Assembly (NCBI GenBank): GCA_021827365.1
Contig: JAKAWK010000013.1
Location: 1-32,612, forward strand
From: Nitrospirota bacterium
Lineage (GTDB): Bacteria > Nitrospirota > Leptospirillia > Leptospirillales > Leptospirillaceae
Reading direction: 5' to 3'
DNA: 32,612 nucleotides
Part shown: in pieces, positions 10,899 through 32,612 of the stretch
Numbering within the stretch: position 1 is the stretch's first letter
How the letters are laid out: each line of letters begins with the position of its first letter
The notes under the pieces: generated by a model
What the model saw: the letters and a program-made list of their open reading frames with translations, nothing else
Databases searched by the model: none
Told to the model about the DNA's origin: nothing
Translations under genes and position numbers: made by a program

Positions 10899-10912
10899 AC
10901 GGGGCCAAGGAC

Positions 10913-10941: not shown

Positions 10942-10949
10942 TTGATCTG

Positions 10950-11123
10950 ATGTCTGAAAATTACCTCCGCATGTCCATGCCGCAACCGTTCTATTCCGCG
11001 AAAGGCCCGGCGGATACCCGAAGAGAACCAAAGAGGACCTCTGAAATGCCCCGTCCCAATCTCAGGAAGCCACTGAAGGGGAGGCCGGACAATCCTGTCC
11101 AGGCCGCTCCGGAAAAATCATGA
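10950..11123 (+). CDS. Small basic 57-residue ORF coupled to the ABC-F gene
   Basis: ATG at 10950 to TGA at 11121-11123, 57 residues, basic and proline-rich with no hydrophobic segment. Two more in-frame ATGs lie at codons 8 and 10. Its stop overlaps the ATG of the ABC-F gene in the classic ATGA arrangement, and the ABC-F gene has no good ribosome site of its own, so translation of this ORF may feed ribosomes to it. It fills most of an otherwise 221-bp gap in a compact operon. No Shine-Dalgarno sequence precedes it; a promoter-like sequence ending at 10941 would make it leaderless. It could be a real small protein, a leader peptide or a chance frame. I recognise no family. Confidence 0.45.
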   Translation: MSENYLRMSMPQPFYSAKGPADTRREPKRTSEMPRPNLRKPLKGRPDNPVQAAPEKS

Positions 11124-13015
11124 TCACCCTCTCGGGAATTTCCAAGCACTATCCCACAAAAACGCTATTTTCCGATCTTTCTCTCCGGATTTCACTCCGG
11201 GAACGGATGGCCCTTGTCGGTCCGAACGGCGCAGGAAAGTCTTCCCTGATGAGAATTCTGGCCGGGGTGCTGGAACCCGACGATGGAGTCGTCAGCATGC
11301 CTCCCGGATACCGGGTCGGATATCTTCCCCAGGAAGTCGTCATCGAAGGAGAGATGACCTCCGTCGGGTGCGTCATGAGCGGCGATGCCGAGCTCATGCG
11401 TCTTGAGGAGGAAATGCGGCTGCTCGAGAAGAAACTTGAAGCCGGGGAGACGCGAGTTCTGGATCGCTACGGAGAGGTCCAGGCGCGATTTGCCCTTCTC
11501 GGGGGATTCGAGCAGGAAACGACGGCGAGAAAGGTCCTGGCCGGACTGGGCTTCGATCAGTCCCGGATGAATGCCCGTGTATCCGACCTCTCCGGGGGAT
11601 GGAGGATGCGTGTGGCCCTGGCCAGGACCCTTGTCACGAATCCGGATCTCCTTCTTCTTGACGAACCGACCAATCATCTCGACATTCCGTCGATCGAATG
11701 GCTGGAAGCATTTCTCCTGGATTTTCCCGGAGCAGTTCTCCTGATCTCCCATGACCGCTCCTTCATGAATGGTGTGGTGGGGGGAGTGATTGAGCTGTCG
11801 GGCGGAAAGGCAACCGTTTTCACAGGCAATTATGATGCCTACCTGGCGGAGAAGGAACGGCGGGCTTTGGCTCTCGACGCGGCCATCGCGCGTCAGGAGG
11901 AGGAAATCGCCAAGACCCAGGAATTTATTGACCGATTTCGCTCCAAGGCGACCAAGGCCACCCAGGTTCAAAGCCGGATCAAGGCCCTCGAGAAGATCGA
12001 ACGTCTGGAAAAGGATGCGGCAGAGAAGACTGTCCGCTTTACCTTCCCGGCGCCCGTGCGTTCGGGAGAAATTGTCGCAACCTTTTCGGAAATCGAAAAA
12101 TCCTATGACGGCCGGGTTATCGTTCATCCCTTCGACTGGGTTCTCCGGAGGGGCATGAAGGTCGCCCTGATCGGCCCGAATGGGGCCGGAAAGTCGACAC
12201 TTCTCAAGATCATGGCAGGGACGGTGGTTCCCGATGCGGGGACCTACCGGACCGGGACCGGTGTCACCACAGCCTATTATTCCCAGCACCAGCTTGAGAT
12301 TCTCGATCCCTCCCACACCGTCCTGGCCAGTATGGAATCTGTGGCCCCCGATTCCGAAAGCCAGACCAGGATCCGGGGGCTCCTCGGAGCCTTCCTCTTT
12401 CGGCATGAGGAGGTCTTCAAGAAGGTGGGGGTCCTGTCGGGGGGAGAAAAGAGCCGGTTGGCCCTGGCCAGACTTCTCCTCGCCCCGGCCAATCTTCTTC
12501 TGCTAGACGAGCCGACCAACCATCTTGACCTTCCCTCACGGGAGGCGCTTGTCACCGCCCTGGAGGCGTACAGGGGAACATTGGTGTTCATCACCCACGA
12601 CCGTTATGTCATTGAAAAGATTGCCACCGATATCATTGAAGTCCTCCCCGGTTCCATCCGGCTTTTCATGAACCACCGGTTCGAAACCTATCGAGCCAAA
12701 AGGGACGGCATCCTGAATGCCTCCGTTCCGGTCTCTCAAGGTTCTGGCAAAACCTCTCCCTCGCCCTCCGGAAATCCGGTTGTCGAAGGAGAGGATCCGG
12801 GCGTAATCGAGAGGCGCCTTTCCTGGGTCGAAAAGGAAGTTCTGGAGCTTGAAGAAGAGGTGAAACGGCTGACGGAGGTCTCGTCAGGCTCAGGGGCGGA
12901 TGCGCGACGGGCCTCATCGAAGCTCTCCGTCGCCAGAAGAAAACTGTCGGACAGAACCGCCGAGTGGGAACGTCTCGGCAGTTTGCTTGAACGGTCCGTC
13001 CAGCGGCCTTCCTGA
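11120..13015 (+). CDS. ABC-F family ATPase (ribosome-associated type)
   Basis: A 631-residue protein with two ATP-binding cassettes and no membrane segments. Cassette 1: Walker A GPNGAGKSS (about residue 35), signature LSGGWRMRVALAR, Walker B LLLLDEPTNHLD. Cassette 2: Walker A GPNGAGKST, signature LSGGEKSRLALAR, Walker B LLLLDEPTNHLD. The linker between them (about residues 235-310) is rich in charged residues, with FIDRFRSKATKATQVQSRIKALEK, the P-site-tRNA-interaction type linker of ABC-F proteins. A C-terminal coiled coil (about 560-630) follows a flexible S/P-rich stretch, as in Uup/YheS-like members. These proteins act on ribosomes rather than in transport. The ATG at 11120 overlaps the preceding small ORF by four bases. 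Confidence 0.95.
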   Translation: MITLSGISKHYPTKTLFSDLSLRISLRERMALVGPNGAGKSSLMRILAGVLEPDDGVVSMPPGYRVGYLPQEVVIEGEMTSVGCVMSGDAELMRLEEEMRLLEKKLEAGETRVLDRYGEVQARFALLGGFEQETTARKVLAGLGFDQSRMNARVSDLSGGWRMRVALARTLVTNPDLLLLDEPTNHLDIPSIEWLEAFLLDFPGAVLLISHDRSFMNGVVGGVIELSGGKATVFTGNYDAYLAEKERRALALDAAIARQEEEIAKTQEFIDRFRSKATKATQVQSRIKALEKIERLEKDAAEKTVRFTFPAPVRSGEIVATFSEIEKSYDGRVIVHPFDWVLRRGMKVALIGPNGAGKSTLLKIMAGTVVPDAGTYRTGTGVTTAYYSQHQLEILDPSHTVLASMESVAPDSESQTRIRGLLGAFLFRHEEVFKKVGVLSGGEKSRLALARLLLAPANLLLLDEPTNHLDLPSREALVTALEAYRGTLVFITHDRYVIEKIATDIIEVLPGSIRLFMNHRFETYRAKRDGILNASVPVSQGSGKTSPSPSGNPVVEGEDPGVIERRLSWVEKEVLELEEEVKRLTEVSSGSGADARRASSKLSVARRKLSDRTAEWERLGSLLERSVQRPS

Positions 13016-14018: not shown

Positions 14019-14634
14019 AAAAGCCTGTCTCGTTCTCTATCTCGGGACAGGGAATTCCCACAAGGTGCTGGAATTCATGAAGATGGCCCCTCCAAATGTT
14101 TCGGTTCTTCAGGCATTTTCCTCAGAATATCCCTCGCCTAATGTTCTTGAGTCGGGGAAGACTTTTTTTGTCAATGCCTATCTCAAAGCCGAAACCTTTG
14201 CCGGGGCCTTGAGGGAGAAGGTGGAAGGGGTGATCATCTCCGACGATTCGGGACTGGTCGTCCCTGCCCTTTCAGGAGCCCCGGGGATTCTCTCCGCCCG
14301 ATATGCCGGTGAGGGAGCTTCTGATGCCCAGAACAGGGAGCTTCTCCTTAAAAACATGAAAGGCCGGACGGGATCCGACCGACGGGCAAGTTTCGTATGT
14401 GTCCTGGTGGCCATGGATATCAAGACCGGAGATCTCATGGCTTCCTCCGTGGGGTCCGTTTCCGGCCGGATTGCAAACGGCCTCATGGGAGAGGGGGGAT
14501 TCGGCTATGATCCCCTGTTCGTTCCCGACGGGTACCGGGCGAGTTTCGGGATCATGGCTCCCGAAGAAAAAAACAGGATCTCTCATCGCTTCCTGGCATT
14601 CCGGAAGCTGTGTTCAATGTTGGTGGCTCCGTGA
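14011..14634 (+). CDS. rdgB: XTP/dITP pyrophosphatase (Ham1/RdgB family)
   Basis: A 207-residue protein, typical size. The first motif TGNSHKVLEF sits near the N-terminus, then SDDSGLVVPALSGAPGILSARYAG with the catalytic aspartates, RRASFVCVL, GEGGFGYDPLFVPDG, and the closing NRISHRFLAFRKL. It should hydrolyse deaminated purine nucleotides to monophosphates so that they do not enter DNA or RNA. The start ATG at 14011 overlaps the DHH gene by eight bases; longer readings of the frame run inside that gene. The stop overlaps the nagZ GTG start. Confidence 0.95.
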   Translation: MGKKACLVLYLGTGNSHKVLEFMKMAPPNVSVLQAFSSEYPSPNVLESGKTFFVNAYLKAETFAGALREKVEGVIISDDSGLVVPALSGAPGILSARYAGEGASDAQNRELLLKNMKGRTGSDRRASFVCVLVAMDIKTGDLMASSVGSVSGRIANGLMGEGGFGYDPLFVPDGYRASFGIMAPEEKNRISHRFLAFRKLCSMLVAP

Positions 14635-15617
14635 GCCGCCTCCGTCCTGGAGCTCTTCTCTGGGTCAGTCTTCCAGGTCCGGTCCTGACAAGGGAGGACC
14701 GGGACTTTCTCCAGAGGATTGATCCCGCAGGTGTGGTGATCTTTCGGGAAAATATCGTCACCCCGTCCCAGGTTCGGGATCTCAATTTGTCGATCAGGGC
14801 GGCCTGCCCCTCCGGGCAGGTTATGATTGCTGTCGACCAGGAAGGAGGGCGGGTGGCCCGTCTTCGGGAGGGAGTCCCCCAGTTGCCCCCCATGCGGAGA
14901 CTGGGAGAGATGGAAGATCCGGAACGGATCAGGACCGCGGGCCGGGACCTCGGCCGGGCTCTCCGGGAGATGGGATTCGATATCGATTTTGCTCCTGTCC
15001 TTGATGTGGATTCCAATGACGCCAATCCGATCATCGGTGACCGTTCGTTTTCCTCCGATCCTCTCAAGGTGGGTCCCATGGCCATGGCCTTTGCCCAGGG
15101 TCTCCAGGAGGAAGGAATCATTCCCTGCGGAAAGCATTTCCCCGGCCACGGAGCCACGGATCTCGATTCCCATCTCGATCTTCCCTTCGTTCATGCGGAG
15201 AGGGAAACTTTGGAAAATAGGGAACTTTCGCCTTTCCGGTATGCCATCAGCGCGGGGATCCCCCTCCTGATGACAGCGCACGTCGTCTATCCGGCCTGGG
15301 ATGAAAGATATCCCGCGACGCTTTCGCGGAGGATCATTACCGGTCTTCTCAGGGAACGTCTCGGATTTTCCGGACTGGTTCTCTCCGATGACCTGCTCAT
15401 GAAGGCCGTAGCGAAAGAGGGAGTGGTGAATGCGGCCCTTTCGGCACTCGAGGCGGGATGTGATGGCCTGCTCGTGCTCCGGAACGGGAAGGCGGCCATG
15501 GATGTGTTCGAGGCTGTGTCCGAAGGGCTGGCCGCGGGGTCAGAACCTGTTCTCCGGGCCCTCGAAAGGGCCGGAAAATGGTTCTCTGACGCTTCCCCAG
15601 GGGGCCCAGACCGATGA
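14631..15617 (+). CDS. nagZ: Beta-N-acetylhexosaminidase, glycoside hydrolase family 3
   Basis: A 328-residue single-domain family-3 glycosidase of NagZ type, which removes GlcNAc from anhydro-muropeptides during cell-wall recycling in the cytoplasm. Visible motifs: GVVIFRENI, MIAVDQEGGRVARLR, DFAPVLDVD, DRSFSSDP, the loop KHFPGHGATDLDSHLDLP carrying the unusual aspartate/histidine acid-base pair, TAHVVYPA, and the nucleophile aspartate in GLVLSDDLLMKA. The start GTG at 14631 gives a GTGA overlap with the rdgB stop; an upstream in-frame GTG at 14610 would add seven residues. Together with murI at the head of the operon and a transglycosylase nearby, it suggests active peptidoglycan turnover. 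Confidence 0.94.
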   Translation: MSRLRPGALLWVSLPGPVLTREDRDFLQRIDPAGVVIFRENIVTPSQVRDLNLSIRAACPSGQVMIAVDQEGGRVARLREGVPQLPPMRRLGEMEDPERIRTAGRDLGRALREMGFDIDFAPVLDVDSNDANPIIGDRSFSSDPLKVGPMAMAFAQGLQEEGIIPCGKHFPGHGATDLDSHLDLPFVHAERETLENRELSPFRYAISAGIPLLMTAHVVYPAWDERYPATLSRRIITGLLRERLGFSGLVLSDDLLMKAVAKEGVVNAALSALEAGCDGLLVLRNGKAAMDVFEAVSEGLAAGSEPVLRALERAGKWFSDASPGGPDR

Positions 15618-19770: not shown

Positions 19771-20100
19771 TTACTTTATTGCCAGAACCCAGTCCGCGAC
19801 TTCCTTGGCCTGGTCCATGGACATTCCGGGGTGGGGCGGCATGATGATTCCTCCGGTGATCTTGTCCCAATGGCCATTTCCCCCAGAGATGATCTTCTTG
19901 GCCAGCATTTCTTCGGCCCCTTTCTGTCCACGATAGCGGTCCGCCACCATTTTGAAGGAGGGTCCGACCATTTTCTGGTCCACAGAATGACAGGCAAAAC
20001 AGCCCTGTTCATTGATCAGGGACTTCACGTCCGTAGCCCAGGCGGGAGAGGAAAGTGCGAGAAGAGTAACCACCGCAAGCGAGATCTTGAGGCTTTTCAT
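19771..20100 (-). CDS. Monohaem class I cytochrome c (c551-type), periplasmic
   Basis: A 109-residue precursor: signal peptide (SLKISLAVVTLLALSSPAWA, cut near residue 23) and a mature domain of about 86 residues. The haem-attachment site is CFACH, followed by the family segment MVGPSFKMVADRY, then ISGGNGHWDKITGGIIMPPHPGMS, where the methionine before PP is the likely sixth iron ligand, and a C-terminal helix AKEVADWVLAIK. This is the small c551/c552 plan. It carries electrons in the periplasm; in iron-oxidising acidophiles such proteins link the iron oxidase chain to terminal oxidases, but that partner is not visible here. AGGAG precedes the ATG, and a promoter lies about 80 bp upstream. Confidence 0.95.
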   Translation of the reverse strand: MKSLKISLAVVTLLALSSPAWATDVKSLINEQGCFACHSVDQKMVGPSFKMVADRYRGQKGAEEMLAKKIISGGNGHWDKITGGIIMPPHPGMSMDQAKEVADWVLAIK

Positions 20101-20263: not shown

Positions 20264-23200
20264 TCAGGTTCGATGGGCTTCCTGAAGGTCCCGGAGAGCC
20301 TCCTTGGCCTGAACAACCCTCTGATTGGCGGCCTTTCTGAACCAAACGACGGCCTGGCCGTGATCCTTCGGAACGCCCCGTCCATTTCTGTAAAGGACTC
20401 CAAGAATGTACTGGGCCTGGGGATGGCCCGTTTCGGCCGCCATTGTAAGCCAAAGGGCCGCTTCCGTGGGGTCCTGGGGAATGCCCTGACCCTCGAGAGC
20501 CATCATTCCAAGGTTGTACTGGGCCTCGGAGTCATCCTGCTCCGCGGCCTTGCGGAACCAGAGAGCCGCTTCCCGGGGATCAGGTCCTGCTCCCCGTCCG
20601 GTTCGGAGCATTGTTCCCAAACGGCATTGGGCCTCGGCCAGTCCTTGTTCTGCCGACCGCCGGATCCAGGTGGTTCCCTCCGCCTCGTTCCGTGGTGTGC
20701 CTCTCCCTTCCAGGTAAAGCATCCCCAGTCTGAGCTGAGCTTCGGAGGAACCGGAAACTGCAGCCTTCTCTGTCCACAGGAATCCTTCTTCGACCAAAGC
20801 TTCTCCGAAATGCCCGTCCGTCAGAAGGGATCCCAGATGAGTCTGGGCCTCGACAAGACCCTTTTCGGCGGCCATTCGGAAAAGCCCGATGGCTGAAGGG
20901 GGGTCAGGATCGGCAAGTTCTCCTTCCTCAAGGATCAGGCCCAGGCGAAAGGCGGCCCCGGGATGTCCTCCGGAAACCGCCGACCGGAGCCAATGGATCC
21001 CGGATTCGGGATCGGAGGGGCGGATGAGGCCCTCGAGCAGGAGGATGGCCAGACGATACTGGGCCTCGGAGTGACCTTGTTCGGCCGCCCTTCTGAACCA
21101 GACAAGGGCGTCCTCACCCGCCGGGGCGAGGGAAGGGTCGGCCTGGTAGAGGATTCCCAGTCTGAACTGGGCCTCCATGACTGCGTTTTCCGCCGCGCGC
21201 CTCATCCATTCATGGCCCCGGGTAAAGTCGGTGGGAATCCCCTCTCCATCAAGACAGATCTGTCCCAGAAGATACTGGGCCTCCGGGATGTCAGCCTCTG
21301 CGGAATGCGAAAGCCAGACGAGCCCTTGCTCCCGTTCCTCCGGGGTCTCGAGAAGAAGACGGGCCAAGAGAAGCTGGGCTTCGGGATCGCCAGATTCTGA
21401 AGCCATCCTGAGCAAGTCCAATCCTTCCCGCCGCTCGTCCGGATTATCTCTTGCCGAGAGCCTTCGTCCCGCCTCGAACTGGGCCCCGACATGACCATCA
21501 CGGGCGGCCAGGAGAAACCATTGCATGGCCTGATCATCCCATCCTTCAGACCGGTTGGCCCAACGGATCATGGCGGCCCGGTACCGGGCCTCGGTCAGAC
21601 CGCTTTCTGCCGCCTTTTCTATCCAGAAAATCCCCTCCTCCCGGAAGGAAGGGTTGTCCTTGTCTTCGAGAAGGATTTTTCCAAGCTCCATCTGGGCCAG
21701 GGCCTGTCCCGCCCCCGCCGCCAAGCGTAGCCAATCGAGAATCTGATTCCGTTCAGCCTGAACCTCTCCTTTCAGGGCCAGTATCGACAGAGTCTCCAGG
21801 GCCTCGGGGACATTGTCTTCGGCGGATTTTCTTATCCATGAAATGCCGCTCTCACGATCTCCGTCTTCGAGAAGAAGACGTCCCAAGGCAAGTTCGGCCC
21901 GGGGGTCTCCCCTGCGTGCGGCGACTTCGAACCATTCCTTTGCCTCTTCCCGGCGATGGCTTTCGAGGTCCCATGTGGCAAGGAGGTATTGGGCTTCCGG
22001 CAGATCTTTCCTGGCAGCGCGTTCGAGGGAGGTCCGGGCCATGTCCGGGTCGCGCGAAAGACCACCCCGTCCTTCCCGGTGGAAAAAAGCCAGTGCAAGA
22101 TGGGCCTCCGGAAGATCCTTCTGGACGGCCTGGGCCAGCCATCGCAGGGCCTCCTCGTCGTCTGCCGGATGGCCTCCCCGGCCTTCGATGGAATAGAGGG
22201 CCATCTGAAGCATGGCCTGTGGAACGCCCCCTTCGGCTGCCTTCCGGTACCAGTATGAGAGTTCTTCGTCGATACCAGGCGGGTTATCCGGGTTTTTCTC
22301 AAGGAGTCTGGCAAGACGGAACTGGGCCATGGGGAGGTTGGCCAGGGCGGCCTTCCGAAAAAAGATGACGGCCGCCTGGAGGTCGGGATCCAAGGTCTCC
22401 CGGCCTTCCTCGAGGCGAATTCCCCATTCCAGCCAGGCCTCGGGGAGATCCTTTTCCGCGGCGCGCCGAATATAGTCGCAGGCCTCCCCTTCGTTTTTCT
22501 CCACTCCTCCCCGTCCGGTTTCAAGGAAGAGGCCCAAACGCAACATGGCTCCCGGAACACCCTGGCCGGCCGCTATCCGGTAAAATTCGGAAGCCCGGAC
22601 ATCATCTGGAGTTCCCCCTAAGCCCTCTTCTGCGATGAGGCCAAGGTGGAAGGCGGCTTCCGGATGGCCTTGAGCCGCTGAAGCCTGGAACAGACGGGTG
22701 GCCTCTCCAGGATCTGAAGGAATGTCCTTCCCCTGGAGATAGAGGAGTCCAAGGCGGTACTGGGCTTCGGGATCGCCTGCCTCCGCCGCCCTTGAAAACC
22801 ATTTGACGGCTTCGGAAATGTTCCGGGGGACATGGAGTCCCTCCTGGTAGATCTCCCCCAGGGTGGCCAGAGTTTCGGTCAGGCCCTGGTCCCCCGCCCG
22901 TTCGAACCACGGGATGGCCTTCGCGGGCTCGCTTTGGCCGCTCAGAATTCCCTTCTGATAAAAAAGTCCCAGCTGGTATTCTGCTTCAGCCAGCCCCTGA
23001 GAGGCGGCCTTGGTGAACCAGTAGAAGGCGAGGGAACTGCTCTGGGGCAGAATTCTTCCTTCGAGATGGAGAGTCCCCAGAACATATTGGGCCTCGGAGT
23101 CGCCGGAGAGTGCGGCCTTGCGGATCCACTCGATCCCCTGCTCCTCCTGGCGGGGGATTCCCTTCCCCTCCAGGAGAAGGGCCCCCAGGAGTGCCTGGGC

Positions 23201-23980
23201 CCGGGTGTGGTTCTTTTCGGCCGCTCCCTGGAACCAGAGGGCGGCCTGTGCGACATTTTGTTCGACGACCCTCCCTTCGTAATACAGAAGGCCGATATTG
23301 AATTGGGCCTCAGGATCCTCCGACTCTGCCGCTCTCATCAGCCAGTCGCGTCCTTCTTCGGGCTGGGAGAAGGGTTGTCCCTCCTCCATGAGAAGAAGTC
23401 CCAGATAGTATTGGGCCCGGCTGTCCCCCTTTTCCGCCGCCTTGCGGAACCAGAGAACCGCCCTTTCGGAATCCTTGGGAAGGCTCCGTCCATGGAGGCA
23501 GGCCAGCCCCAGATTGAACTGTGCAGCGATATCCCCCGCATGGGCGGCCTCCTCGATCCACTCGACAGGATCGATGTCATCCTCAGGGAGGACCTTGGCT
23601 TCCAGATAGAGGGTCCCATAGAGGCTCTTGGCCTCGGTCATGCCCTGGCGGGCTGCCTGCTTGATGTAGGAGGCCCCCCTCGAAAGGGACTGCGGAATCC
23701 CCCGTCCTTCAAAAAGCATGAGTCCCAGGTTGTATTGGGCGGCTGCAAGCCCCTGTTCGGCCGCCCGTTCGAACCAGATGGCGGCTTGGGCAAGATCCTG
23801 GGGAACCCCTTTCCCCTTGAGATGCAGGAGTCCCAGGTTGTATTGGGCCCGCGCATTCCCCTGATCGGCGGCCTTCCTTATAAGCTGTGCTGCAGGAACC
23901 GGATCGAGCCCCTTCAGAGTGGGAGCCGTTCCGGATTCGTAGGCTTTCAGATTGAAAAGAAGGCCGATTTTTTGCCACAT
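20264..23980 (-). CDS. Giant Sel1-repeat protein (about 34 repeats)
   Basis: A 1238-residue protein made almost entirely of Sel1-like repeats. Each unit is 32-38 residues with the core A..W...AAE.G...AQY.LG..Y..G.G.P.D; I count about 34 from residue 20 to the end, the last cut short. The repeats have diverged: many keep EAQYxLG, while a middle block (about repeats 13-24) is looser. No signal peptide or membrane helix is visible at the N-terminus (MWQKIGLLFNLKAYESG), so as read it is cytoplasmic. Sel1 solenoids hold protein complexes together and occur in exopolysaccharide machines (AlgK) and bacterial signalling. The gene lies 516 bp after bcsQ on the same strand. A scaffold role in cellulose synthesis is plausible but unproven. 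The ATG at 23980 has a weak ribosome site. Confidence 0.93.
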   Translation of the reverse strand: MWQKIGLLFNLKAYESGTAPTLKGLDPVPAAQLIRKAADQGNARAQYNLGLLHLKGKGVPQDLAQAAIWFERAAEQGLAAAQYNLGLMLFEGRGIPQSLSRGASYIKQAARQGMTEAKSLYGTLYLEAKVLPEDDIDPVEWIEEAAHAGDIAAQFNLGLACLHGRSLPKDSERAVLWFRKAAEKGDSRAQYYLGLLLMEEGQPFSQPEEGRDWLMRAAESEDPEAQFNIGLLYYEGRVVEQNVAQAALWFQGAAEKNHTRAQALLGALLLEGKGIPRQEEQGIEWIRKAALSGDSEAQYVLGTLHLEGRILPQSSSLAFYWFTKAASQGLAEAEYQLGLFYQKGILSGQSEPAKAIPWFERAGDQGLTETLATLGEIYQEGLHVPRNISEAVKWFSRAAEAGDPEAQYRLGLLYLQGKDIPSDPGEATRLFQASAAQGHPEAAFHLGLIAEEGLGGTPDDVRASEFYRIAAGQGVPGAMLRLGLFLETGRGGVEKNEGEACDYIRRAAEKDLPEAWLEWGIRLEEGRETLDPDLQAAVIFFRKAALANLPMAQFRLARLLEKNPDNPPGIDEELSYWYRKAAEGGVPQAMLQMALYSIEGRGGHPADDEEALRWLAQAVQKDLPEAHLALAFFHREGRGGLSRDPDMARTSLERAARKDLPEAQYLLATWDLESHRREEAKEWFEVAARRGDPRAELALGRLLLEDGDRESGISWIRKSAEDNVPEALETLSILALKGEVQAERNQILDWLRLAAGAGQALAQMELGKILLEDKDNPSFREEGIFWIEKAAESGLTEARYRAAMIRWANRSEGWDDQAMQWFLLAARDGHVGAQFEAGRRLSARDNPDERREGLDLLRMASESGDPEAQLLLARLLLETPEEREQGLVWLSHSAEADIPEAQYLLGQICLDGEGIPTDFTRGHEWMRRAAENAVMEAQFRLGILYQADPSLAPAGEDALVWFRRAAEQGHSEAQYRLAILLLEGLIRPSDPESGIHWLRSAVSGGHPGAAFRLGLILEEGELADPDPPSAIGLFRMAAEKGLVEAQTHLGSLLTDGHFGEALVEEGFLWTEKAAVSGSSEAQLRLGMLYLEGRGTPRNEAEGTTWIRRSAEQGLAEAQCRLGTMLRTGRGAGPDPREAALWFRKAAEQDDSEAQYNLGMMALEGQGIPQDPTEAALWLTMAAETGHPQAQYILGVLYRNGRGVPKDHGQAVVWFRKAANQRVVQAKEALRDLQEAHRT

Positions 23981-24402
23981 GATGGGGTCACCGTCCAGGG
24001 ATGAGGATGAGAGGCTCCCGCTGCGGCAAGACCGGATTCCCTAGCGATCAGAGGGAATTGGGAAAAGCGCAGCTCTGCTTCCGGATTTTTTCAGAGGATC
24101 GAGCCATTCCTACGCAAGAAATTTGCCACATCCTCACGCCATGCCAGCGGGGATGACGGGTCCGATATTCGGAGGGGGATTTTGTGGAGCCGGATCTTTT
24201 TAAAGTCTGTGACATGGAGTGGCTCTCAAATTAAACAAATGGAATCTCTCCGTTTTTTCATGAAAAAGACAGAATTTGAGCGGGATTTTGTGTTTGGAAG
24301 ATCGAAATGTCCTGATTCTGGAATTTTTAAAGATCGGAAAACCCGGGATCCAAACGAGTCCTGGCTCTGAAGTCGCCGGTCTTCGATTCGGGAGAGTCCT
24401 CT
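23981..24402. other. Intergenic stretch upstream of the Sel1 gene
   Basis: Part of a 516-bp gap between bcsQ and the Sel1 gene. It is richer in AT from about 24180 to 24350. Short frames on both strands lack ribosome sites and family features. A promoter for the Sel1 gene is expected here on the minus strand, but no good hexamer pair was found. Confidence 0.5.
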
Positions 24403-24464
24403 GTCGGATGTCAGGCTTTTTGACAAGGAGACCTCTTCATGTCAAAAAGCCTGACAGGTCCGAC
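24403..24464. repeat. 62-bp near-perfect palindrome after bcsQ
   Basis: Inner arms of 16 bases match perfectly: GTCAGGCTTTTTGACA at 24410-24425 and TGTCAAAAAGCCTGAC at 24440-24455, with a 14-base loop. Outer arms GTCGGA (24403-24408) and TCCGAC (24459-24464) add six pairs after a 1/3-base bulge. The palindrome starts 32 bp after the bcsQ stop. No T-run directly follows it in the bcsQ direction; on the plus strand eight T residues come nine bases after the stem. It could slow or end bcs transcription, protect the mRNA 3' end, or be a palindromic repeat element. Confidence 0.85.
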
Positions 24465-24496
24465 GTACATTCGTTTTTTTTCGCGCGGGACAGGGT

Positions 24497-25603
24497 CTAA
24501 CCAGCGAGTTTCGCCGAGATCCAGCGGGAGACCTCCGCCATCGAGATCGCTGCCGATGTTTCAGAAAAGACATCGAGAAGGCTCTCTCCCCTGGCCTGGG
24601 CCAGCTCCACAGTGGAATCTTCCGGAATGACAAAGGGACAGAGCCTCCTTGAGAGGATCTGCCGGATTATTTCATAGATGTCCTGGTGCAGGGGATGGTC
24701 CGGAATGAAGCGGTTGAGAACGTAGAATCGTTCGCAGTACCGGTTTTCTTCCCGTTCGAGCCGATCGAAGCTCTTTTCCATATCCTTGACGGAGACAAGG
24801 GAGGGGAGATCGGGCCTGACCGGAGAGAGGAACATGGAGGAAATCCGGAGTGTTTCCTTTAGCTCCTGTCGGGTCATAGGGGGCGAATCAATCAGGACGA
24901 AAGGGTCGGGGTGCCCGGAATTTCCGAAAATGCCAGCAGCCTGTGACACAATCTCATCTCGGAGCCTTGAAAGGGCGTCGGATCCCTCGTTCCCCCGGAG
25001 CTCCTCCGGGTCCGGGCGAACGACAACCATCGGGATGCCTGTTGGCTCATAGGTATGAAAGGTCCAGCTTCGGCCCATCCGAACCGATTCTTCATGCCGA
25101 AAATTCATGAACAGATAGGGGTAAAGGCTTGTTTCGTTCAGGTCGATAAGGAGGCAGGGTCTTCCATGGCGGGCATTTTCGATCGCGAGCACAGAGGAGA
25201 GCGTACTTCGCCCGCTTCCTCCTGCCAGACTGCAAAGGACCAGGAGCGGCCATTTTGAGGGAGGAGAAGGAAGGGCCGGAATCAGATCCGAAACGGCCGC
25301 CTTGAGGCCGGGCCATTCTTCCGCTTCCCCGCCGGCAGCCTGCGGAGCCTCGAGGGGTCTGAAGACCTTCCGGCTCCTTTGTGGAGGGGGAAGGAAGACG
25401 GAAGAAGAGCCACTCTTCCCGGAAAGCCCCTGAAGTCCGAAGGCAGGGGAGGGCGAGGATGGGAGAGATCCCTCTCCCTCACGCCCATAGGTCGTTTCCG
25501 GAGAACGGAGGGGGGGCTTTTCAAATTCGCGGTAGGGCAAGGTGTCATCCCGGGTTGCATGGAAAATTTCCAAAACTCGCTTGATATCAGAGGAAAGACT
25601 CAT
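24497..25603 (-). CDS. bcsQ: BcsQ-type MinD/ParA-like ATPase with BcsR/BcsP-like N-terminal extension
   Basis: A 368-residue protein. Residues about 118-368 form a MinD/ParA-like domain: the P-loop reads AGGSGRSTL (residues 127-135), so both signature lysines are replaced, as also happens in enterobacterial BcsQ; CLLIDLNETSLYPYLF and FVLIDSPPMTRQEL follow. The closing part (VLNRFIPDHPLHQDIYEIIRQ, then LLDVFSETSAAISMAEVSRW) runs parallel to E. coli BcsQ. Residues 1-117 are extra: DIKRVLEIF and YREFEKP resemble the short motif of BcsR/BcsP, a proline-rich linker follows, and KWPLL sits just before the ATPase. Start at 25603 because AGGAG lies six bases upstream; the frame extends into bcsC. It should help place or activate the cellulose synthase at the inner membrane. 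Confidence 0.85.
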   Translation of the reverse strand: MSLSSDIKRVLEIFHATRDDTLPYREFEKPPLRSPETTYGREGEGSLPSSPSPAFGLQGLSGKSGSSSVFLPPPQRSRKVFRPLEAPQAAGGEAEEWPGLKAAVSDLIPALPSPPSKWPLLVLCSLAGGSGRSTLSSVLAIENARHGRPCLLIDLNETSLYPYLFMNFRHEESVRMGRSWTFHTYEPTGIPMVVVRPDPEELRGNEGSDALSRLRDEIVSQAAGIFGNSGHPDPFVLIDSPPMTRQELKETLRISSMFLSPVRPDLPSLVSVKDMEKSFDRLEREENRYCERFYVLNRFIPDHPLHQDIYEIIRQILSRRLCPFVIPEDSTVELAQARGESLLDVFSETSAAISMAEVSRWISAKLAG

Positions 25604-25661
25604 CGTGGGCTCCTGCATGGCATTGCGGTGAGGGAGATTCCTGATTTTGTATTCCCGCGTC

Positions 25662-28583
25662 TCAGTAGAGAAAGTACCACGAGACACCTTCATATCCCCC
25701 GATTCCCGGGAAGGCGGAGGAGTTCAGAAGACCGCCGTCGAAAAGAAGGGAGGAGTGCAGGGGGGCCAGCCAAAGTCGCAGGGCGATTCCTCCCTGGAAG
25801 GCATCATAGGTCGAGTTTCCCTGGGTAATGAATTCGGGACCCAGATCCAGGCGGAAGCGTCGGCTCTCTCCCTCCCAGACAGGCGTGAGATAGCGCATCT
25901 GAAAATAGACATAATCGATGTAACCGGTGAAGTTGGCGAAAAAGTCCAGACCTCCCCCGAGGACATTCCAGAGCAGATCGGTCTGGAGAAAGAGACCGGT
26001 GACGGTTCCGGGGGGTGTGAGAGTCTGGAAGTGCTGGGCGACCGCAATGCCTGCGTCTCCTTCCCAGTACCCGAAGAAGGTCGGGAACCGGATTCCTATG
26101 GCAGGGGTAAGCCCTTCGTAGGATTGGGAGAGGAAGGAGGAGGTGGTGGGTGTCGGATGGTATTCAAAGGTGAAGGCATTTCCCATCAGGAAAAGATGGA
26201 GAAGGGGAGAGGCGCTTTGCCCTGATCCGATCGTATATTGGCCGAGCCCCGTTAACGGAAGGATGTCGCCGACCTGGGCATAGTAGTACTGGGTGTACTG
26301 GGTGAAGGCCGTTTCTCCGGCCATCAGTTCGAGGTGGCCCCTTGACCGGCGTTTCTTTTCTTTTTCGATCACCTCGAGTGCCTTTCGGGCCTGGATCCTG
26401 AGAAGGGAAGGGTCCAGGGGCGCGCTGCCCGACTGCGGGAGAAGACGGAGAGACGACAGGGCCGCCTCGATGTCCCGTTTGGACTCCTCAAAATGTCCCA
26501 GGACCCGGTCATTTTCGGCCAGGGCCAGGAGGATCCGGGGATCACGGGGATGACGGGAAAGGGCCTTTTCAAGCGTTTTTCTGGCTCTTTCCGGATGCCC
26601 CTCGGCCTGATCCAGGCGGGCCTTGAGGACTGAAATTCTGACACTCTCCGGCCACCGCGAGGTGGCCTCTTCGATCCAGACCTCCGCCTCAAGGGTATGC
26701 CCCGTCGTCATGGCCACCCCTGCGGCGGCCTCAAAGGAGCTGACGGTCGAACCGGGTCCAAGGCTCCGGACAAGCCGGTAGGCCTGGGCGTTCTTTCCCT
26801 GAGACTCGAGGATGGCGGCCTCCTGTTCCCGGTAGAAGCGGTCGGCAGGATGGCGTGAGGCATGGATCTTCATAAGTGTGAGCGCCCTGTCGGGGAGGTT
26901 TTTTGACAAGAGGTCCTGTTCCTCCCTCAAGGCCCTGAGGTGATGGAGATTTCGAAGTTCTAAGGTTTCATGGGCTGACAGGCCGGAGGTCTGGTCGAGC
27001 CGGTCCAGAAGGAGTCCCAGGGGGCGATGGCTTCCGGATTTCAGCATGGTCCAGGCCCAGGAAAGTTCGGTGTCAGGCGGTCGGGTCGGGGTCAGGACCA
27101 GGGCTTTTTCGAAAGCCGCCCGGGCTTCGGCGGGATGGCCTGTGTGGGCAAAGACCGATCCCTCGGTCACAAGAAAGTCCGGATTCTCTTCGAGGCGTGT
27201 CCGGAGGGAGGAGGAAAGGGAATCGAGCGTGGATTGAGCCTTGGTCTCCTCTCCCAATCTCTCATAGAGGGTCAGGAGCCCCGCCCAGGCCTGTGTCTCT
27301 CCCGGAGAGAGGGAAAGGGCTCTCCTGTAAAGCTCCACGGCCTTGGAGTCATGGTTCATGCGGGCCGCAAGACGACCCCGGGCAACCAGAAGAACCGGCT
27401 GATCAGGGCGGATACGGTCGGCCTGGTCATAGACCTTGTCGGCAGTCTCGAGGTCTCCGTTCACTTCAGCGGCCCTGGCTTTCTCCATCAGGATCCAGAA
27501 TGAGGTCTGGGATGAAAGGTCCCGACCCTCGGCTTCCTGGTCCCGGGAGAGGGGATGGCGGCGGGCTTGATCAAGCGCCATGCGGGCCTTCCCGAATTGT
27601 TTGAGACCCAGGTAGGAGTAGGAAAGTCCGAGCCAGTAGGCGGGATTTTCCGAATCGCGACCGATGAGGGCCCGGAAACGGGAGACCGCCTTTTTGAATT
27701 GTCCCTCTTCAAGGGACTGGTAGGCCAGGCGGGATTCAGGCCCGGCCGAGAGGGCCAGCCTTTCGGCAAGACGGAGCTGGTCTTCGAGGGCCCGGTCGTG
27801 CGGGTGGACTTCAAGGTAGGACCTGATCTCCGGAATGTTTCGGGGAAGGGTTCCTTCCCAGACTATGACCTGTCTCCAGGAGGCCGTGGCCGTGTCCGAA
27901 ACGGGGGAGGGTTCCAGGGCCATGGGCTTCAGGATGTCGAGGGCATCCCAGCGGGATTTGGGGTTGTAGGAAAGGATCTTCCCGAGCGAGAGGCGGTAGT
28001 GGAGGCTGTCGGGATAAGTGGAGACAAGCGATCTGAGCTGGCGGACCGCCTCCCGGTAACCTTCAGGGGTGCGGGAGAGATCGTTGTAGTATTCAACGGC
28101 ATACTGGGGGGGCGGCGGGTAGGGACCGAAGGCCTTCTGGTAATGGGTGAGGGCCCTCGAATAAAGGTGGCGTGCATCATCTTTTTTGGCTTGGGCAACT
28201 TCCCTGTCCCATTCGGGACCCAGCTGGGCCTCCCTGGAGAAGCCCGGTAGAACAGGATCCATAGGATTCATCGTCCGGAGGACATTGATGTACCTGGCTG
28301 CAAGACGTCGATCCCCCCGCCTGAGAGCGTCGGAGGCGAGACCGATCAGGGCCGGCCTGTTGTTCGGATCGAGGAAGAGAAGCTGGCGGTAGGTTTGGGT
28401 TGCAAGGTCGTCCCGGCCGTGGGCTGTCCAGAACTCAGCCTTCTTTTCCAGTGTCAGGGTGACTGATGTCGCCGCCCGGGCCTCCAACGACGGGCTTCCC
28501 ACGATCAGGGTTAATAAAAACCCTGCGGGTATAAGACGCAGAATCCGGGTATTCAGAGGAAGACTCCCGAGGAGGGGGATCAT
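25662..28583 (-). CDS. bcsC: BcsC-like cellulose export protein: TPR solenoid plus C-terminal outer-membrane barrel
   Basis: A 973-residue protein with a signal peptide (RLIPAGFLLTLIVGSPSLEARA), a long periplasmic TPR region (residues about 40-720, with units such as AYWLGLSYSYLGLKQFGKARMAL and AELYRRALSLSPGETQAWAGL-type patterns), and a C-terminal segment of about 230 residues rich in alternating aromatic and small residues, ending GVSWYFLY, an aromatic end typical of outer-membrane barrels. Its order after bcsB fits BcsC, the channel that guides cellulose out. E. coli BcsC is near 1157 residues and its last domain is longer, so this barrel is short and diverged; GYWEGDAG and RLDLGPEFITQGN recall BcsS-like barrels. 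The ATG at 28583 overlaps the bcsB stop as ATGA. Confidence 0.88.
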   Translation of the reverse strand: MIPLLGSLPLNTRILRLIPAGFLLTLIVGSPSLEARAATSVTLTLEKKAEFWTAHGRDDLATQTYRQLLFLDPNNRPALIGLASDALRRGDRRLAARYINVLRTMNPMDPVLPGFSREAQLGPEWDREVAQAKKDDARHLYSRALTHYQKAFGPYPPPPQYAVEYYNDLSRTPEGYREAVRQLRSLVSTYPDSLHYRLSLGKILSYNPKSRWDALDILKPMALEPSPVSDTATASWRQVIVWEGTLPRNIPEIRSYLEVHPHDRALEDQLRLAERLALSAGPESRLAYQSLEEGQFKKAVSRFRALIGRDSENPAYWLGLSYSYLGLKQFGKARMALDQARRHPLSRDQEAEGRDLSSQTSFWILMEKARAAEVNGDLETADKVYDQADRIRPDQPVLLVARGRLAARMNHDSKAVELYRRALSLSPGETQAWAGLLTLYERLGEETKAQSTLDSLSSSLRTRLEENPDFLVTEGSVFAHTGHPAEARAAFEKALVLTPTRPPDTELSWAWTMLKSGSHRPLGLLLDRLDQTSGLSAHETLELRNLHHLRALREEQDLLSKNLPDRALTLMKIHASRHPADRFYREQEAAILESQGKNAQAYRLVRSLGPGSTVSSFEAAAGVAMTTGHTLEAEVWIEEATSRWPESVRISVLKARLDQAEGHPERARKTLEKALSRHPRDPRILLALAENDRVLGHFEESKRDIEAALSSLRLLPQSGSAPLDPSLLRIQARKALEVIEKEKKRRSRGHLELMAGETAFTQYTQYYYAQVGDILPLTGLGQYTIGSGQSASPLLHLFLMGNAFTFEYHPTPTTSSFLSQSYEGLTPAIGIRFPTFFGYWEGDAGIAVAQHFQTLTPPGTVTGLFLQTDLLWNVLGGGLDFFANFTGYIDYVYFQMRYLTPVWEGESRRFRLDLGPEFITQGNSTYDAFQGGIALRLWLAPLHSSLLFDGGLLNSSAFPGIGGYEGVSWYFLY

Positions 28584-30829
28584 GGACCAGTTCTCCGGAC
28601 TGCAAGGGTTGAAAGAATGCGGGAGAGAATCCCGGCCAGCAAAAGGCTGATTGCAAGAAGGACCATGAGGACGCCCAGCGGATGGGAAAAGAACCAGAAA
28701 CGAAGCAAGGTGAGGGGTGGAAGGTGTCCCAAGGAAAACCGGTCTCCGGGAACGAGGAAGGAGTGGATTCGGCGCGGGCCCACCAGGCTTACCTGGCCGA
28801 ATATGTCGGAAAAGTGCTGCGGGTCGAAGAGGACCCGGTCCATGGAGACCAGGGATTGCTCGCTCACTCCTCCAAGGGAAAGGATGACCCGGCGGGGGGC
28901 CAGGGGCGAGACATCCTCCTCCATGACACCCAGGGGATTCCTGTCTTCCTTGAAGTAGGCGGCCAGGGCTTCCGGACCGTAGGAATCGGGAGGGGGGTTG
29001 GACCAGCGGAGAAGATCCTCCATGCGGCTTTTGAGCCGGATCCGGGAACGAGTTTCCTGGGTGTCCTGGGGGAGAGCCTTGCCGTATCGGAGAAGAAGGG
29101 GGTTGGAGTCGTAGGTTCCGATCAGGATCAGGTTCCTGTTCGAGACAGAGGGAACCCCGTCGGGACCTGTGACGGACAGGTCGACTCCCGGGGATCCTGT
29201 TTCCTGGGCCAGAAAGGCCATGAGATGAAGGAAAACCCTGATATCCCCCTCTCCCGGAGTGTCAGGGAGAACGACGGCCGTTTCCCTGAGGTCGGCGTAC
29301 CGTGTAAAAGGGTATCCCCCGTTGGGGACCAGTCGGAGATTGGGCAGACGGACAAAATGAGGGATACGGTGAAGGTCGAGGGAGGAGTCGCCGAGGATCG
29401 TCCCCCGGAGACGGGTGTTATGGCTCGCCCTGCAGGAGAGGATCCCCGGAATCTCGGACCTGAAATTGAAGTTGAGCTTTAAGACGTTCCGGAACGGGGT
29501 CAGGTCACTCAGCTTCAGAGGAATTGTCTGGTAATGGTCGGCCGGTGTTCCGGATTCGGGGGGGAGGGGAATGGAATCCTGGTATTTCTTGTTGAGAAGA
29601 AGGTCGAGCCGCGAGCGCCCTTCTCCCGGAAGTGTGGAATAACGGTAATGGAGCATCAGGGGAAAGGTGGCGGTGTGAAAGAAAAATAGGTCCGAGGGAA
29701 GTGAAAACCTGAGCGGGATCGAGCCGGTGCCGGTGACTTCGAGCTCTCCTGGCGAGGAGGCGAGGGGGGCGAGTCGGACCGGTTTTTGTGTATCGATCCA
29801 GCGAGGGGCCCCGTTTTTTTCTTTTGAAACCGGAATTTCAACATGGGAGAGGGTCGTCGCAGGTCCCTTGGGGGTGAATTGTCCGAGAGCCAGTCCCAGG
29901 GCTGCGGTCCGGACTTCCTCCGGGGTGCGTCCCAGAATCAGAAGGATCTTCCCGTAGGGATCGGCCGGATTGTCGACCAGGGCCAGGGTCGGACCTGCAA
30001 GGGGCGGAAGCAGGCCGGAAAGGGGAGGAAGAGGGGAGGCCGCGAGCAGGACAAGATTTCCGGTGGGAAGAGACCCGAGATCAACGGGAATCCCCACCGA
30101 AACAGGGAATCTCAGGGGGGCGTTCTCGCTTTTTACGCCGAACCAGGAGGCGGCATACCCGGCGGCTTCAAGAAGCTTGATGTCGCGGCTTCCCATAAGA
30201 AAAGGAATGGTTCGGACCCCGGTCATGGCGTGATAGAGAAAGGGAAGGGGGAGATCGGAGAGCCGGCTGGGAAAATGGATCCGGATCCCGGCCAGGGTGA
30301 TTTGGGTTGCCGGATCTATATGGATGAAATGGCCGGCGTAAATCGTTGAGCAGGGATGCTTCGGATCCTTGGCCACCCGGATCCGGAGGGAATTAAGCGG
30401 GGTGACCAGGTAGGGAGGGATCGGGAAGGTGACGGTCTGCACGGGAAGGGGTCCCTTTTGATCTGGCGGTCCGGGGAGTGTGCCAAGGAGGGTTTCGTTG
30501 ACATCCACCTCGAGACGGGGATAGGGGACGAGCTTCTTTTGGGGCAGGTAGGAATACCGGAGGGTCACCGACCCCTTTTCCACCATTTGACTGGGAGGAA
30601 CCCCGAAGAAGGTCGTTCGGTCCATGCTGCTTCCTGAAAAATCGACCCCATGCTCCCACCCGAGTTCCGAGAGGGTGAATGATTTTGTGAACCCGCTGTA
30701 AGGCGTTCCCATGGCTGGAACGAGGGGCTTCGGCTCCGCGTTGGGAGCTTCGGCAAAGGCCGGCCTTACAAGTGCGGAGAGGGCGAGAAAAAGGAGAAGG
30801 GCCGGGAGAAATCCCGGTCGTTTTATCAT
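28580..30829 (-). CDS. bcsB: Cellulose synthase periplasmic subunit BcsB
   Basis: A 749-residue protein, close to the family length. It has a signal peptide (GFLPALLLFLALSALVRPAFA), two carbohydrate-binding/flavodoxin-like halves rich in beta strands, and a single C-terminal membrane helix (LGVLMVLLAISLLLAGILSRIL, about residues 715-737) by which BcsB anchors next to BcsA. The segment PNGGYPFTRYADLRETAVVLP is a recognisable BcsB landmark, as is LKLNFNFRSEIPGILSCRASHNTRLRGTI upstream of it. It guides the growing glucan through the periplasm and is needed for catalysis. It begins 37 bp after the bcsA stop and overlaps bcsC by four bases. Confidence 0.94.
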   Translation of the reverse strand: MIKRPGFLPALLLFLALSALVRPAFAEAPNAEPKPLVPAMGTPYSGFTKSFTLSELGWEHGVDFSGSSMDRTTFFGVPPSQMVEKGSVTLRYSYLPQKKLVPYPRLEVDVNETLLGTLPGPPDQKGPLPVQTVTFPIPPYLVTPLNSLRIRVAKDPKHPCSTIYAGHFIHIDPATQITLAGIRIHFPSRLSDLPLPFLYHAMTGVRTIPFLMGSRDIKLLEAAGYAASWFGVKSENAPLRFPVSVGIPVDLGSLPTGNLVLLAASPLPPLSGLLPPLAGPTLALVDNPADPYGKILLILGRTPEEVRTAALGLALGQFTPKGPATTLSHVEIPVSKEKNGAPRWIDTQKPVRLAPLASSPGELEVTGTGSIPLRFSLPSDLFFFHTATFPLMLHYRYSTLPGEGRSRLDLLLNKKYQDSIPLPPESGTPADHYQTIPLKLSDLTPFRNVLKLNFNFRSEIPGILSCRASHNTRLRGTILGDSSLDLHRIPHFVRLPNLRLVPNGGYPFTRYADLRETAVVLPDTPGEGDIRVFLHLMAFLAQETGSPGVDLSVTGPDGVPSVSNRNLILIGTYDSNPLLLRYGKALPQDTQETRSRIRLKSRMEDLLRWSNPPPDSYGPEALAAYFKEDRNPLGVMEEDVSPLAPRRVILSLGGVSEQSLVSMDRVLFDPQHFSDIFGQVSLVGPRRIHSFLVPGDRFSLGHLPPLTLLRFWFFSHPLGVLMVLLAISLLLAGILSRILSTLAVRRTGP

Positions 30830-30866
30830 TTCTCGGGGGAGTGAAACGGGGGGATGGCGTCAGTTT

Positions 30867-32612
30867 TCACGAGGCAGGACTTTCCCTGAAGAGGGCCCGG
30901 AAAAGCCTGAGCTGGCCGATCATGGCGAATTTGGTCATTCTTCCCAGACTTGAGAGGATCCTGTCCCGGGGGTTCACGGAACGGATCCTGACCCAGGCAT
31001 CGGCTCTCCCGTAAAGAATCAGGACAAGATTGCGTTCCTCCGCTAGTGTCAGGGGAAGGAAGTTGAGCCGGACTGAAAACTCGTCCAGCCCGACCACAAG
31101 GCAGGGAAAGTCGAAGATTTTTCCGAACAGGGGGATCTGGAGAAGCAGCCGCTCCCCGATGGAGAGAGTCTCCCCTTGTCCCAGGCGAAGCCTGACCCCC
31201 AAATCCGAAATGTCCTCTGTTTCTCCGGAGATGACTTTCTGTCCAGGACCCAGGATCCTGGCCGGAAGATTCAGGGAAATCCGGGGACGGTTCCTTCGCT
31301 GGGCCGATTCCCAGCCGACGGCCAGGGCCGCACCCAGAACGATCATGTTGTGGAAAACCCAGATGAGGGTCAGCGCGATGGTGGGGATTTCTCCCAGCCC
31401 CTTGGCCAAACGGTAGACCCCCGCCACAAGCCCCCCGAGGTTCAAAAGCCAGAAGATGACGAATGGACGGGCAATTTTGTGATCGAAGAATTCTTCTCTT
31501 ACGACCCCTTCCTTTGACGTGACGTTGAAAGAGCCCGCCTTGGGGTTGATGAGGGCCAGGAGGGTCGGGAGGAAGATGTAGGGGGCGAGGGTCGTTTCAT
31601 AGACTTCGTTCCAGAAGGAATGGCGATGGTTTCCCTGGAGGGTGGAGTTGGTCAAAAGGGCCAGGGCGAGGACGGGAAAGGCATAGGCGGCGATCGAATA
31701 GGCGTCGGCATCGAAAATCTTGATTCCGAAGTAGAGGTAGGCCAAGGGAGCCAGGAGAAAGATCATCCGTGGAAGTGAAAACAGGAAGTGCATCATCCCG
31801 TTCAGATAACACAGCCTCTGGAAGAGTCCCAAACCCGGGGCAAGGAGTGGATTGTCGATCCGGAAAATCTGGATCATCCCCCGGGCCCATCGGACTCTCT
31901 GGCGGATATGGGCAGAAAGGGTTGTCGTGGCCAGGCCGGCCGCCTGGGGAAGGTTCAGATAGGCCGACTGCCACCCCTTTTTGTGAAGCAGAAGCGAGGT
32001 ATGGGCATCTTCTGTGACCGTATCCACGGCAATGCCGCCGATTCCTTCGAGGGCGGACCTTCTGAGGACGGCACATGATCCGCAGAAGGTCGTTGCATCC
32101 CAGAAATCATTTCCGTCCTGGACGACACCGTAAAACAGGGCGCCTTCATTGGGGATCTCGTGGAAGATGTCCAGATTCCTTTCATAGGGATCGGGAGAAT
32201 AAAAATGGTGAGGGGTCTGGACAAAGGAATACCTGGGATTGTTTTCGAGAATGCCGACCGTCGCCTGAAGGAAGGAGCGCGTGGGAATGTGGTCGCAGTC
32301 GAAGATGGCAATATATTTTCCGGAGGAGCGGGGGAGGGCGTAGTTGAGATTCCCCGCTTTGGCATGCCGATGTTCGGGCCTGGCCAGGTACCGGACTCCG
32401 GCCGCCTCTGCAAACTCCTCGAAGGCCGGACGATTTCCGTCGTCGAGGAGATAGACGGTCAGCTTTTCTGCGGGCCAATCAAGGTTGAGGGCTCCGAGAA
32501 CGGTGGGGCGCACGATGGAAAGGGGTTCGTTGTAGGTGGTGATGAATACGTCCACCTCCGGCCAGAGTGCGGGATCTTCTGTGAGCGGTTCGGCCTTTCT
32601 CCGGAGAGGGGA
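30867..32612 (-). CDS. bcsA: Cellulose synthase catalytic subunit BcsA (partial, N-terminus outside window)
   Basis: The frame is open to the right edge; 581 residues are visible. Glycosyltransferase family 2 motifs come in order: VDVFITTYNEP, LLDDGN (visible residues about 55-60), DCDHIP (105-110), CGSCAVLRR, VTEDAHTS (the TED, about 200) and QRVRWARGM (QxxRW, about 238). Several membrane helices follow, then a PilZ domain: RRNRPR and DISDLGVRLR give the RxxxR and D/NxSxxG pair that binds cyclic di-GMP. So the enzyme should polymerise UDP-glucose to beta-1,4-glucan and push it through the inner membrane under c-di-GMP control. The upstream portion in the window (ALWPEVDVF) matches conserved BcsA sequence, so the apparent GTG start inside is not real. 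First gene of the visible bcs order. Confidence 0.96.
   Translation of the reverse strand, partial: SPLRRKAEPLTEDPALWPEVDVFITTYNEPLSIVRPTVLGALNLDWPAEKLTVYLLDDGNRPAFEEFAEAAGVRYLARPEHRHAKAGNLNYALPRSSGKYIAIFDCDHIPTRSFLQATVGILENNPRYSFVQTPHHFYSPDPYERNLDIFHEIPNEGALFYGVVQDGNDFWDATTFCGSCAVLRRSALEGIGGIAVDTVTEDAHTSLLLHKKGWQSAYLNLPQAAGLATTTLSAHIRQRVRWARGMIQIFRIDNPLLAPGLGLFQRLCYLNGMMHFLFSLPRMIFLLAPLAYLYFGIKIFDADAYSIAAYAFPVLALALLTNSTLQGNHRHSFWNEVYETTLAPYIFLPTLLALINPKAGSFNVTSKEGVVREEFFDHKIARPFVIFWLLNLGGLVAGVYRLAKGLGEIPTIALTLIWVFHNMIVLGAALAVGWESAQRRNRPRISLNLPARILGPGQKVISGETEDISDLGVRLRLGQGETLSIGERLLLQIPLFGKIFDFPCLVVGLDEFSVRLNFLPLTLAEERNLVLILYGRADAWVRIRSVNPRDRILSSLGRMTKFAMIGQLRLFRALFRESPAS

Follow-up and report, generated by a model that had tools for sequence, protein, structure and literature searches.

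The stretch of DNA under study (hereafter the window) comprises 32,612 nucleotides and constitutes the entire contig C36. The genome, that of a Nitrospirota bacterium of the family Leptospirillaceae, comprises 155 contigs (2.25 Mb) and is 87% complete. Genomes used for comparison carry G-numbers, G000 being the genome under study, and the genus is represented by 14 congeneric genomes including G000. On the minus strand of the window the cellulose synthesis genes bcsA (cut at its 5' end), bcsB, bcsC and bcsQ were found in this order, overlapping or nearly so, followed after 516 bp by a gene of 1238 codons for a giant protein of Sel1 repeats. The features of this segment are:

30867..32612, minus strand: bcsA, glycosyltransferase family 2 (GT2) and PilZ domains, 5' end lost at the contig end (TIGR03030, PF07238)
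28580..30829, minus strand: bcsB (PF03170, 405.9 bits)
25662..28583, minus strand: bcsC, tetratricopeptide repeat (TPR) and putative outer-membrane export subunit (TPR families; PRK11447 below cut-off)
24497..25693, minus strand: bcsQ, ParA/MinD-type ATPase, later start codon possible (PF06564 and CbiA)
24440..24456, unstranded: Sel1 operator palindrome 1 (distal), TGTCA-N7-TGACA, 31 bp from palindrome 2
24409..24425, unstranded: Sel1 operator palindrome 2 (promoter-proximal), TGTCA-N7-TGACA
24114..24128, minus strand: sigma54-like -24/-12 promoter of the Sel1 gene, TGGCAAATTTCTTGC (GG-N10-GC), from leader conservation in five genomes
20264..23980, minus strand: giant Sel1-repeat protein, 1238 aa, 34 repeats (family search, de novo hidden Markov model, ortholog lengths)
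19771..20100, minus strand: small cytochrome c, a flanking gene outside the system (PF00034)

Cellulose synthesis genes and the Sel1-repeat protein

The run of bcsA, bcsB, bcsC and bcsQ on one strand, described previously in a sequence-only reading of the window, was borne out by the positions of the open reading frames (ORFs) and by Pfam and NCBIfam assignments, and the distance of 516 bp from bcsQ to the Sel1 ATG proved exact (24496 minus 23980). BcsA was identified with TIGR03030 (730.8 against a cut-off of 699.1) and a PilZ domain (PF07238, 43.4 bits), its translation displaying the motifs FDCDH, TED and QRVRW. For BcsC the TPRs were clear, with a match to NCBIfam PRK11447 over residues 36-706 (E=2e-42) that lies below the cut-off, while BcsQ was matched by PF06564 and CbiA, the NCBIfam BcsQ match being under its cut-off. 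No bcsD, bcsE or bcsG was seen among the identified genes of the window, in agreement with the same reading, the whole genome not having been searched for them. Searches of the window against Rfam and for tRNAs gave no matches.

The absence of bcsZ reported by that reading was found to be an artefact: the contig ends inside bcsA, and the claim was rejected for this reason. In three relatives (G003, G009 and G013), bcsA is immediately preceded by a glycoside hydrolase family 8 (GH8)/BcsZ gene. Furthermore, contig C14 (L106:1-1218) of the genome under study shares the final 1.2 kb of the window (31392-32610) at 92.6% identity and runs on into the bcsA start, a paired operator and bcsZ (the latter read by translation). 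Due to this level of identity, C14 is probably a strain variant, and two or more strains are probably mixed at this locus in the metagenome-assembled genome. The missing 5' part of bcsA, the paired operator and bcsZ are also present in G013 (L055). Since both the relatives and C14 carry bcsZ upstream of bcsA, the full cluster, as pieced together from these contigs, is bcsZ-bcsA-bcsB-bcsC-bcsQ, followed by Sel1. Two bcs loci were observed in G013, on contigs C303 and C305 (L055, L057), 95% and 70% identical to the window BcsB; the less similar locus may be a contaminant that stems from a different lineage of the genus.

Known bcs clusters, with a core of bcsA, bcsB, bcsC and bcsZ and accessory bcsQ, share with the present locus the GT2 and PilZ domains of BcsA, BcsB, the TPR protein BcsC, the GH8 enzyme BcsZ (here outside the window) and BcsQ. 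This locus differs from them in its bcsZ-A-B-C-Q order, in the interval from bcsZ to bcsA, which holds a paired operator with a sigma54-like promoter, and in a giant Sel1 gene that has the paired operator in common with bcsA.

The estimate of about 34 Sel1 repeats in 1238 residues held up, with the Sel1 family (PF08238; tandem repeats of about 36 residues) scoring 599 bits over the protein in Pfam and a de novo hidden Markov model giving 34 repeats. From these repeats the alpha-solenoid fold class of the protein is clear. Its N-terminus, MWQKIGLLFNLKAYESG, is without a hydrophobic segment, the best 19-residue Kyte-Doolittle mean being 1.13 for the protein and 0.36 for windows starting in the first 40 residues. 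Neither a signal peptide nor a transmembrane segment was identified by hydropathy across the whole sequence, and because of this lack of a hydrophobic segment the protein is most likely cytosolic.

The Sel1 gene comprises 1238 codons alike in G000, G003, G005 and G010, with pairwise omega values of 0.10-0.16. When 33 repeats were compared with those of G003, 32 matched their positional orthologue best, so the array is, judging from this comparison, old and fixed and not a recent expansion. Invariance by repeat was 76-88% over residues 24-290 and 78-79% over residues 1151-1218, compared to 34-55% over residues 796-1001; such conserved ends would be expected if both ends of the protein bind partners.

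Alpha-solenoid repeats likewise occur in exopolysaccharide loci in the TPR/Sel1-type scaffolds AlgK, PgaA and BcsC. Sel1 solenoids as scaffolds in other exopolysaccharide systems had been cited in the sequence-only reading, but these precedents (AlgK and the TPRs of PgaA and BcsC) are periplasmic or outer-membrane proteins, whereas the present protein lacks a signal peptide and is much longer at 34 repeats. The AlgK model scored 216.5 on it against a cut-off of 700, and the export signal and outer-membrane lipoprotein anchor of AlgK were not found. By sequence, it belongs to the same repeat family as the solved Sel1 proteins PDB 6ok3 and 4bwr and eukaryotic SEL1L (8kes); the PDB Sel1 chains matched are of approximately 250-800 residues, with molecule names free of any link to cellulose, compared to 1238 residues here.

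Putative paired operators and promoters upstream of bcsA and the Sel1 gene

A promoter-like element, TGGCA[AG]ATTTCTTGCG (GG-N10-GC; TGGCA-N6-TTGC), was identified upstream of the Sel1 gene in 5/5 genomes. In these genomes two TGTCA-N7-TGACA palindromes with 0-1 mismatch, spaced 30-31 bp, lie 278-282 bp upstream of the -24 position. Only 17.5% of the Sel1 leader is invariant among the five, the -24/-12 element and the operator being its best-conserved blocks. Upstream of bcsA, two TGTCA-N7-TGACA palindromes spaced 31-33 bp were likewise found in five loci, 61-63 bp before TAGCA-N6-TTGCA, this operator and promoter-like element being situated between bcsZ and bcsA.

Exact single palindromes were found seven times in the 2.25 Mb (0.6-1.4 expected), with four of the seven accounted for by the two pairs. 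When the 14 congeneric genomes were searched for the pair using a fixed 14-bp spacer and up to three mismatches, every match was a bcsA or Sel1 promoter, each with 0-1 mismatches. A control with the reversed motif at the same tolerance gave one match per strand in two genomes. No paired operator was found in the bcs loci of other genera. As the paired site at this spacing is confined to the bcsA and Sel1 promoters in the 14 genomes, Sel1 and bcsABCQ would appear to be two transcription units of one small biofilm regulon. This, with Sel1 as a co-regulated cytosolic hub, is the explanation which we favour with some reserve. Co-expression of bcsA and Sel1 is predicted from the shared operators.

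The sequence-only reading had described Sel1 as attached to the cellulose locus. This is so by position; as regards transcription, the 516-bp gap was found to hold a promoter-like element and paired operator belonging to the Sel1 gene itself. Because of its own promoter-like element, Sel1 as merely the last gene of the bcs operon was rejected, though some read-through may occur.

Several observations weigh against the two-unit regulon. The -24 element of bcsA is TAGC and not the canonical TGGC, being one base off. At Sel1, the distance of 280 bp is far for an enhancer, a typical distance being approximately 80-150 bp (PMC5552954). Pairs with a spacing of 30 bp escape a search that fixes the spacer at 14 bp. 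In addition, the palindrome pair forms a strong hairpin in G000 and G007 (-38.5 and -34.2 kcal/mol), where the two Sel1 palindromes are exact reverse complements that could form a 17-bp RNA stem after bcsQ, and in these two genomes the hairpin may help to end bcsQ transcription.

This hairpin is one basis for regarding bcsQ and Sel1 as chance neighbours, the palindromes being the terminator hairpin of bcsQ and Sel1 a part of the downstream block with no tie to cellulose. That block is indeed conserved, and Sel1 outlives bcs in some genomes. However, the hairpin is without a U-tract and no terminator is predicted there, the stem is imperfect and weaker in G003 and G005 although the TGTCA/TGACA ends are kept, and the same pair occurs upstream of bcsA, where the stem potential is different. 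A plain terminator was rejected on these grounds. Sel1 is, moreover, absent from genomes that have the downstream block but lack bcs, and chance neighbourhood is accordingly judged improbable.

The exact -24/-12 sequence of Sel1 has two copies in the genome, the other (C34:30201-30215, L092) being located 75 bp before the ATG of galU. This galU arrangement with a Sel1-type element was also identified in G001 and G010, and hence in both clades. The galU product makes UDP-glucose, the substrate of BcsA. A copy with one mismatch precedes a polysaccharide deacetylase-like gene (C34:10715). Contig C34 (L091, L092) holds a large exopolysaccharide region with an exosortase, an EpsI-like protein and the galU and deacetylase-like copies of the -24/-12 element, and its end carries a match to a sigma54 activator.

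Distribution within the genus and natural losses of bcs

Orthologues of Sel1 were found in 6/14 genomes of the genus, G000 included, with 73-92% identity and equal length where complete. In every genome with an assembled region on the upstream side of Sel1 (5/5), this region contains an intact bcsQ (G000, G003 and G007) or a bcsQ relic (G005 and G010). Sel1 and bcs lie on separate contigs in G013, while G009 possesses bcs on a contig that breaks inside bcsC. The sequence-only reading had proposed a comparison of bcs neighbourhoods; within the genus, Sel1 was found not to be missing from most bcs loci, the partnership being conserved. Seven genomes (G001, G002, G004, G006, G008, G011 and G012) have the downstream block (a helicase and its neighbours) with neither bcsB nor giant Sel1, six of which form one well-supported clade on a helicase tree, the placement of G011 not being settled by it.

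The sister genera G014 and G020 were found to have bcsABCQ without Sel1, and the adjacency of bcs and Sel1 is, among the genomes compared, genus-specific. Other long Sel1 matches in 296 Nitrospirota genomes were limited to G124 and G295, with N-terminal hydrophobic signal-like segments. These lie in other surroundings and were rejected as further cases of a giant Sel1 beside bcs in the phylum, no bcs gene being evident from the neighbouring ORFs as listed without a family search.

The cytochrome c gene is taken as the downstream border of the bcs-Sel1 segment because its neighbourhood is present also in genomes without bcs and Sel1. A homologue of the gene which relatives carry at its position was found in L083 and L086. 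The conserved downstream block contains a glycoside hydrolase family 3 gene (PF00933, window 14610-15617), which is kept with or without bcs.

Two lineages have lost bcsABCQ. In G010, bcsA runs as far as codon ~113 and then, through an internal deletion, continues into the final ~35 codons of bcsQ; its bcsZ is disrupted by both a frameshift and a stop. Of bcsQ, G005 retains only a C-terminal part, which follows an unrelated beta-propeller gene; bcsB was not found in this genome, which is 88% complete. Since G005 groups with G003 and G009 on the helicase tree and G010 does not (moderate support), the two losses are probably independent. The operator and promoter of bcsA have drifted in G010 while those of Sel1 are kept, for which reason Sel1 seems to have a use without the cellulose synthase. 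The omega of Sel1 was not clearly raised in the lineages lacking bcs. Very recent losses would weaken this argument from retention, though the extra lesions of bcsZ disfavour them. Both lineages retain Sel1 intact, together with its operator and promoter, and the gene is under purifying selection there; it is therefore unlikely to encode an obligate scaffold for cellulose alone.

These losses bear on the proposal that Sel1 organises the synthase from the cytoplasm. In its strict form Sel1 would be a dedicated cytosolic scaffold docking on BcsQ or on the PilZ domain of BcsA; in its favour are the adjacency to bcsQ in three species (with a bcsQ relic in two), the lack of a signal peptide, the paired operator common to Sel1 and bcsA, and the absence of bcsE from the genes seen in the window. 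Against this stand the intact and constrained Sel1 of G010 and G005 despite the loss of bcsABCQ, the bcsABCQ of G014 and G020 without Sel1, and the promoter-like element of Sel1 itself. The conserved partnership within the genus and the probable cytosolic location are therefore retained from the proposal, while its dedicated part is not, and we regard such a scaffold as unlikely. The tie between Sel1 and bcs is nevertheless probably real and firmer than position alone would indicate.

A proposed shared biofilm regulon and its candidate activators

Under the favoured explanation of two co-regulated transcription units, a bacterial enhancer-binding protein (bEBP) would bind the paired TGTCA-N7-TGACA palindromes upstream of bcsA and Sel1 and activate sigma54 RNA polymerase at both predicted promoters, putatively of the sigma54 type. 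It may respond to cyclic di-GMP (c-di-GMP), like BerB of Burkholderia cenocepacia, a c-di-GMP-responsive protein that acts together with RpoN (PMC5552954). Production of the cellulose machine would thus coincide with that of the Sel1 protein, a soluble cytoplasmic alpha-solenoid of 34 repeats that may, in sessile cells, serve as a hub or adaptor with several binding sites. In genomes that have the cellulose machine, Sel1 would work for it, since BcsQ and the PilZ domain of BcsA face the same compartment, and it would have at least one further partner outside this machine. Gene order, repeats, the lack of a signal peptide, the geometry and restriction of the operators, and the persistence of Sel1 with its promoter where bcs has been lost were all read from the sequence.

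Approximately 17 strong Sigma54_activat matches were found in the genome, with a GAFTGA-type motif in 13 of the 14 activator ORFs extracted and a VpsR domain in two of the ten scanned. No exact palindrome was found beside an activator gene (0/14 bEBP ORFs). BerB/RpoN, VpsR and FleQ are c-di-GMP-responsive bEBPs acting on exopolysaccharide genes, to which the two bEBPs with a VpsR domain may be likened; the predicted targets here are the bcs operon and the Sel1 gene, and the bEBPs are candidates only. Two sigma54 activators with PilZ-like N-terminal parts were observed on contig C62 (L140:1548-3092, 10447-11856), near sugar-metabolism-like genes, one with a PF07238 match at E=5e-4, below the cut-off; these could be c-di-GMP sensors. 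Naming a single activator was rejected, and the ORFs with VpsR domains or PilZ-like parts remain listed as candidates.

Sel1 might instead act in the cytosol to regulate c-di-GMP enzymes, or the activator common to both units, as a feedback arm and not a scaffold. This would accord with the operator shared with bcsA and with Vibrio vulnificus, where TPR proteins encoded together (RcbA/RcbB) modulate c-di-GMP (PMC12282931). The Sel1 protein ExoR also regulates exopolysaccharide production, and a family of this kind is listed as NCBIfam NF045484. However, a Pfam search found no catalytic or signalling domain in the 1238 residues. ExoR, furthermore, is periplasmic. We consider this role rather doubtful.

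The role of the hub may also be drawn more widely, with Sel1 as a dedicated sigma54- and c-di-GMP-controlled hub organising more than one exopolysaccharide machine at the inner membrane face. This would explain both the operator shared with bcs and the retention after bcs loss, and is put forward as a speculative extension that we do not expect to hold.

Leptospirillum ferriphilum has been reported as able to make cellulose (PMC9592645). In the titles and abstracts of the few papers found on Leptospirillum with Sel1, or on Leptospirillum with cellulose and RpoN, a link between bcs and Sel1 was not evident. On the present findings, a single short and recognisable DNA motif would connect a giant repeat protein with the bcs operon in Nitrospirota. 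Knowledge of the cytoplasmic organisation and timing of cellulose synthase comes chiefly from enterobacteria, with a few further proteobacteria. Here, the two natural bcs deletions would act as knock-outs that separate the Sel1 protein from the synthase.

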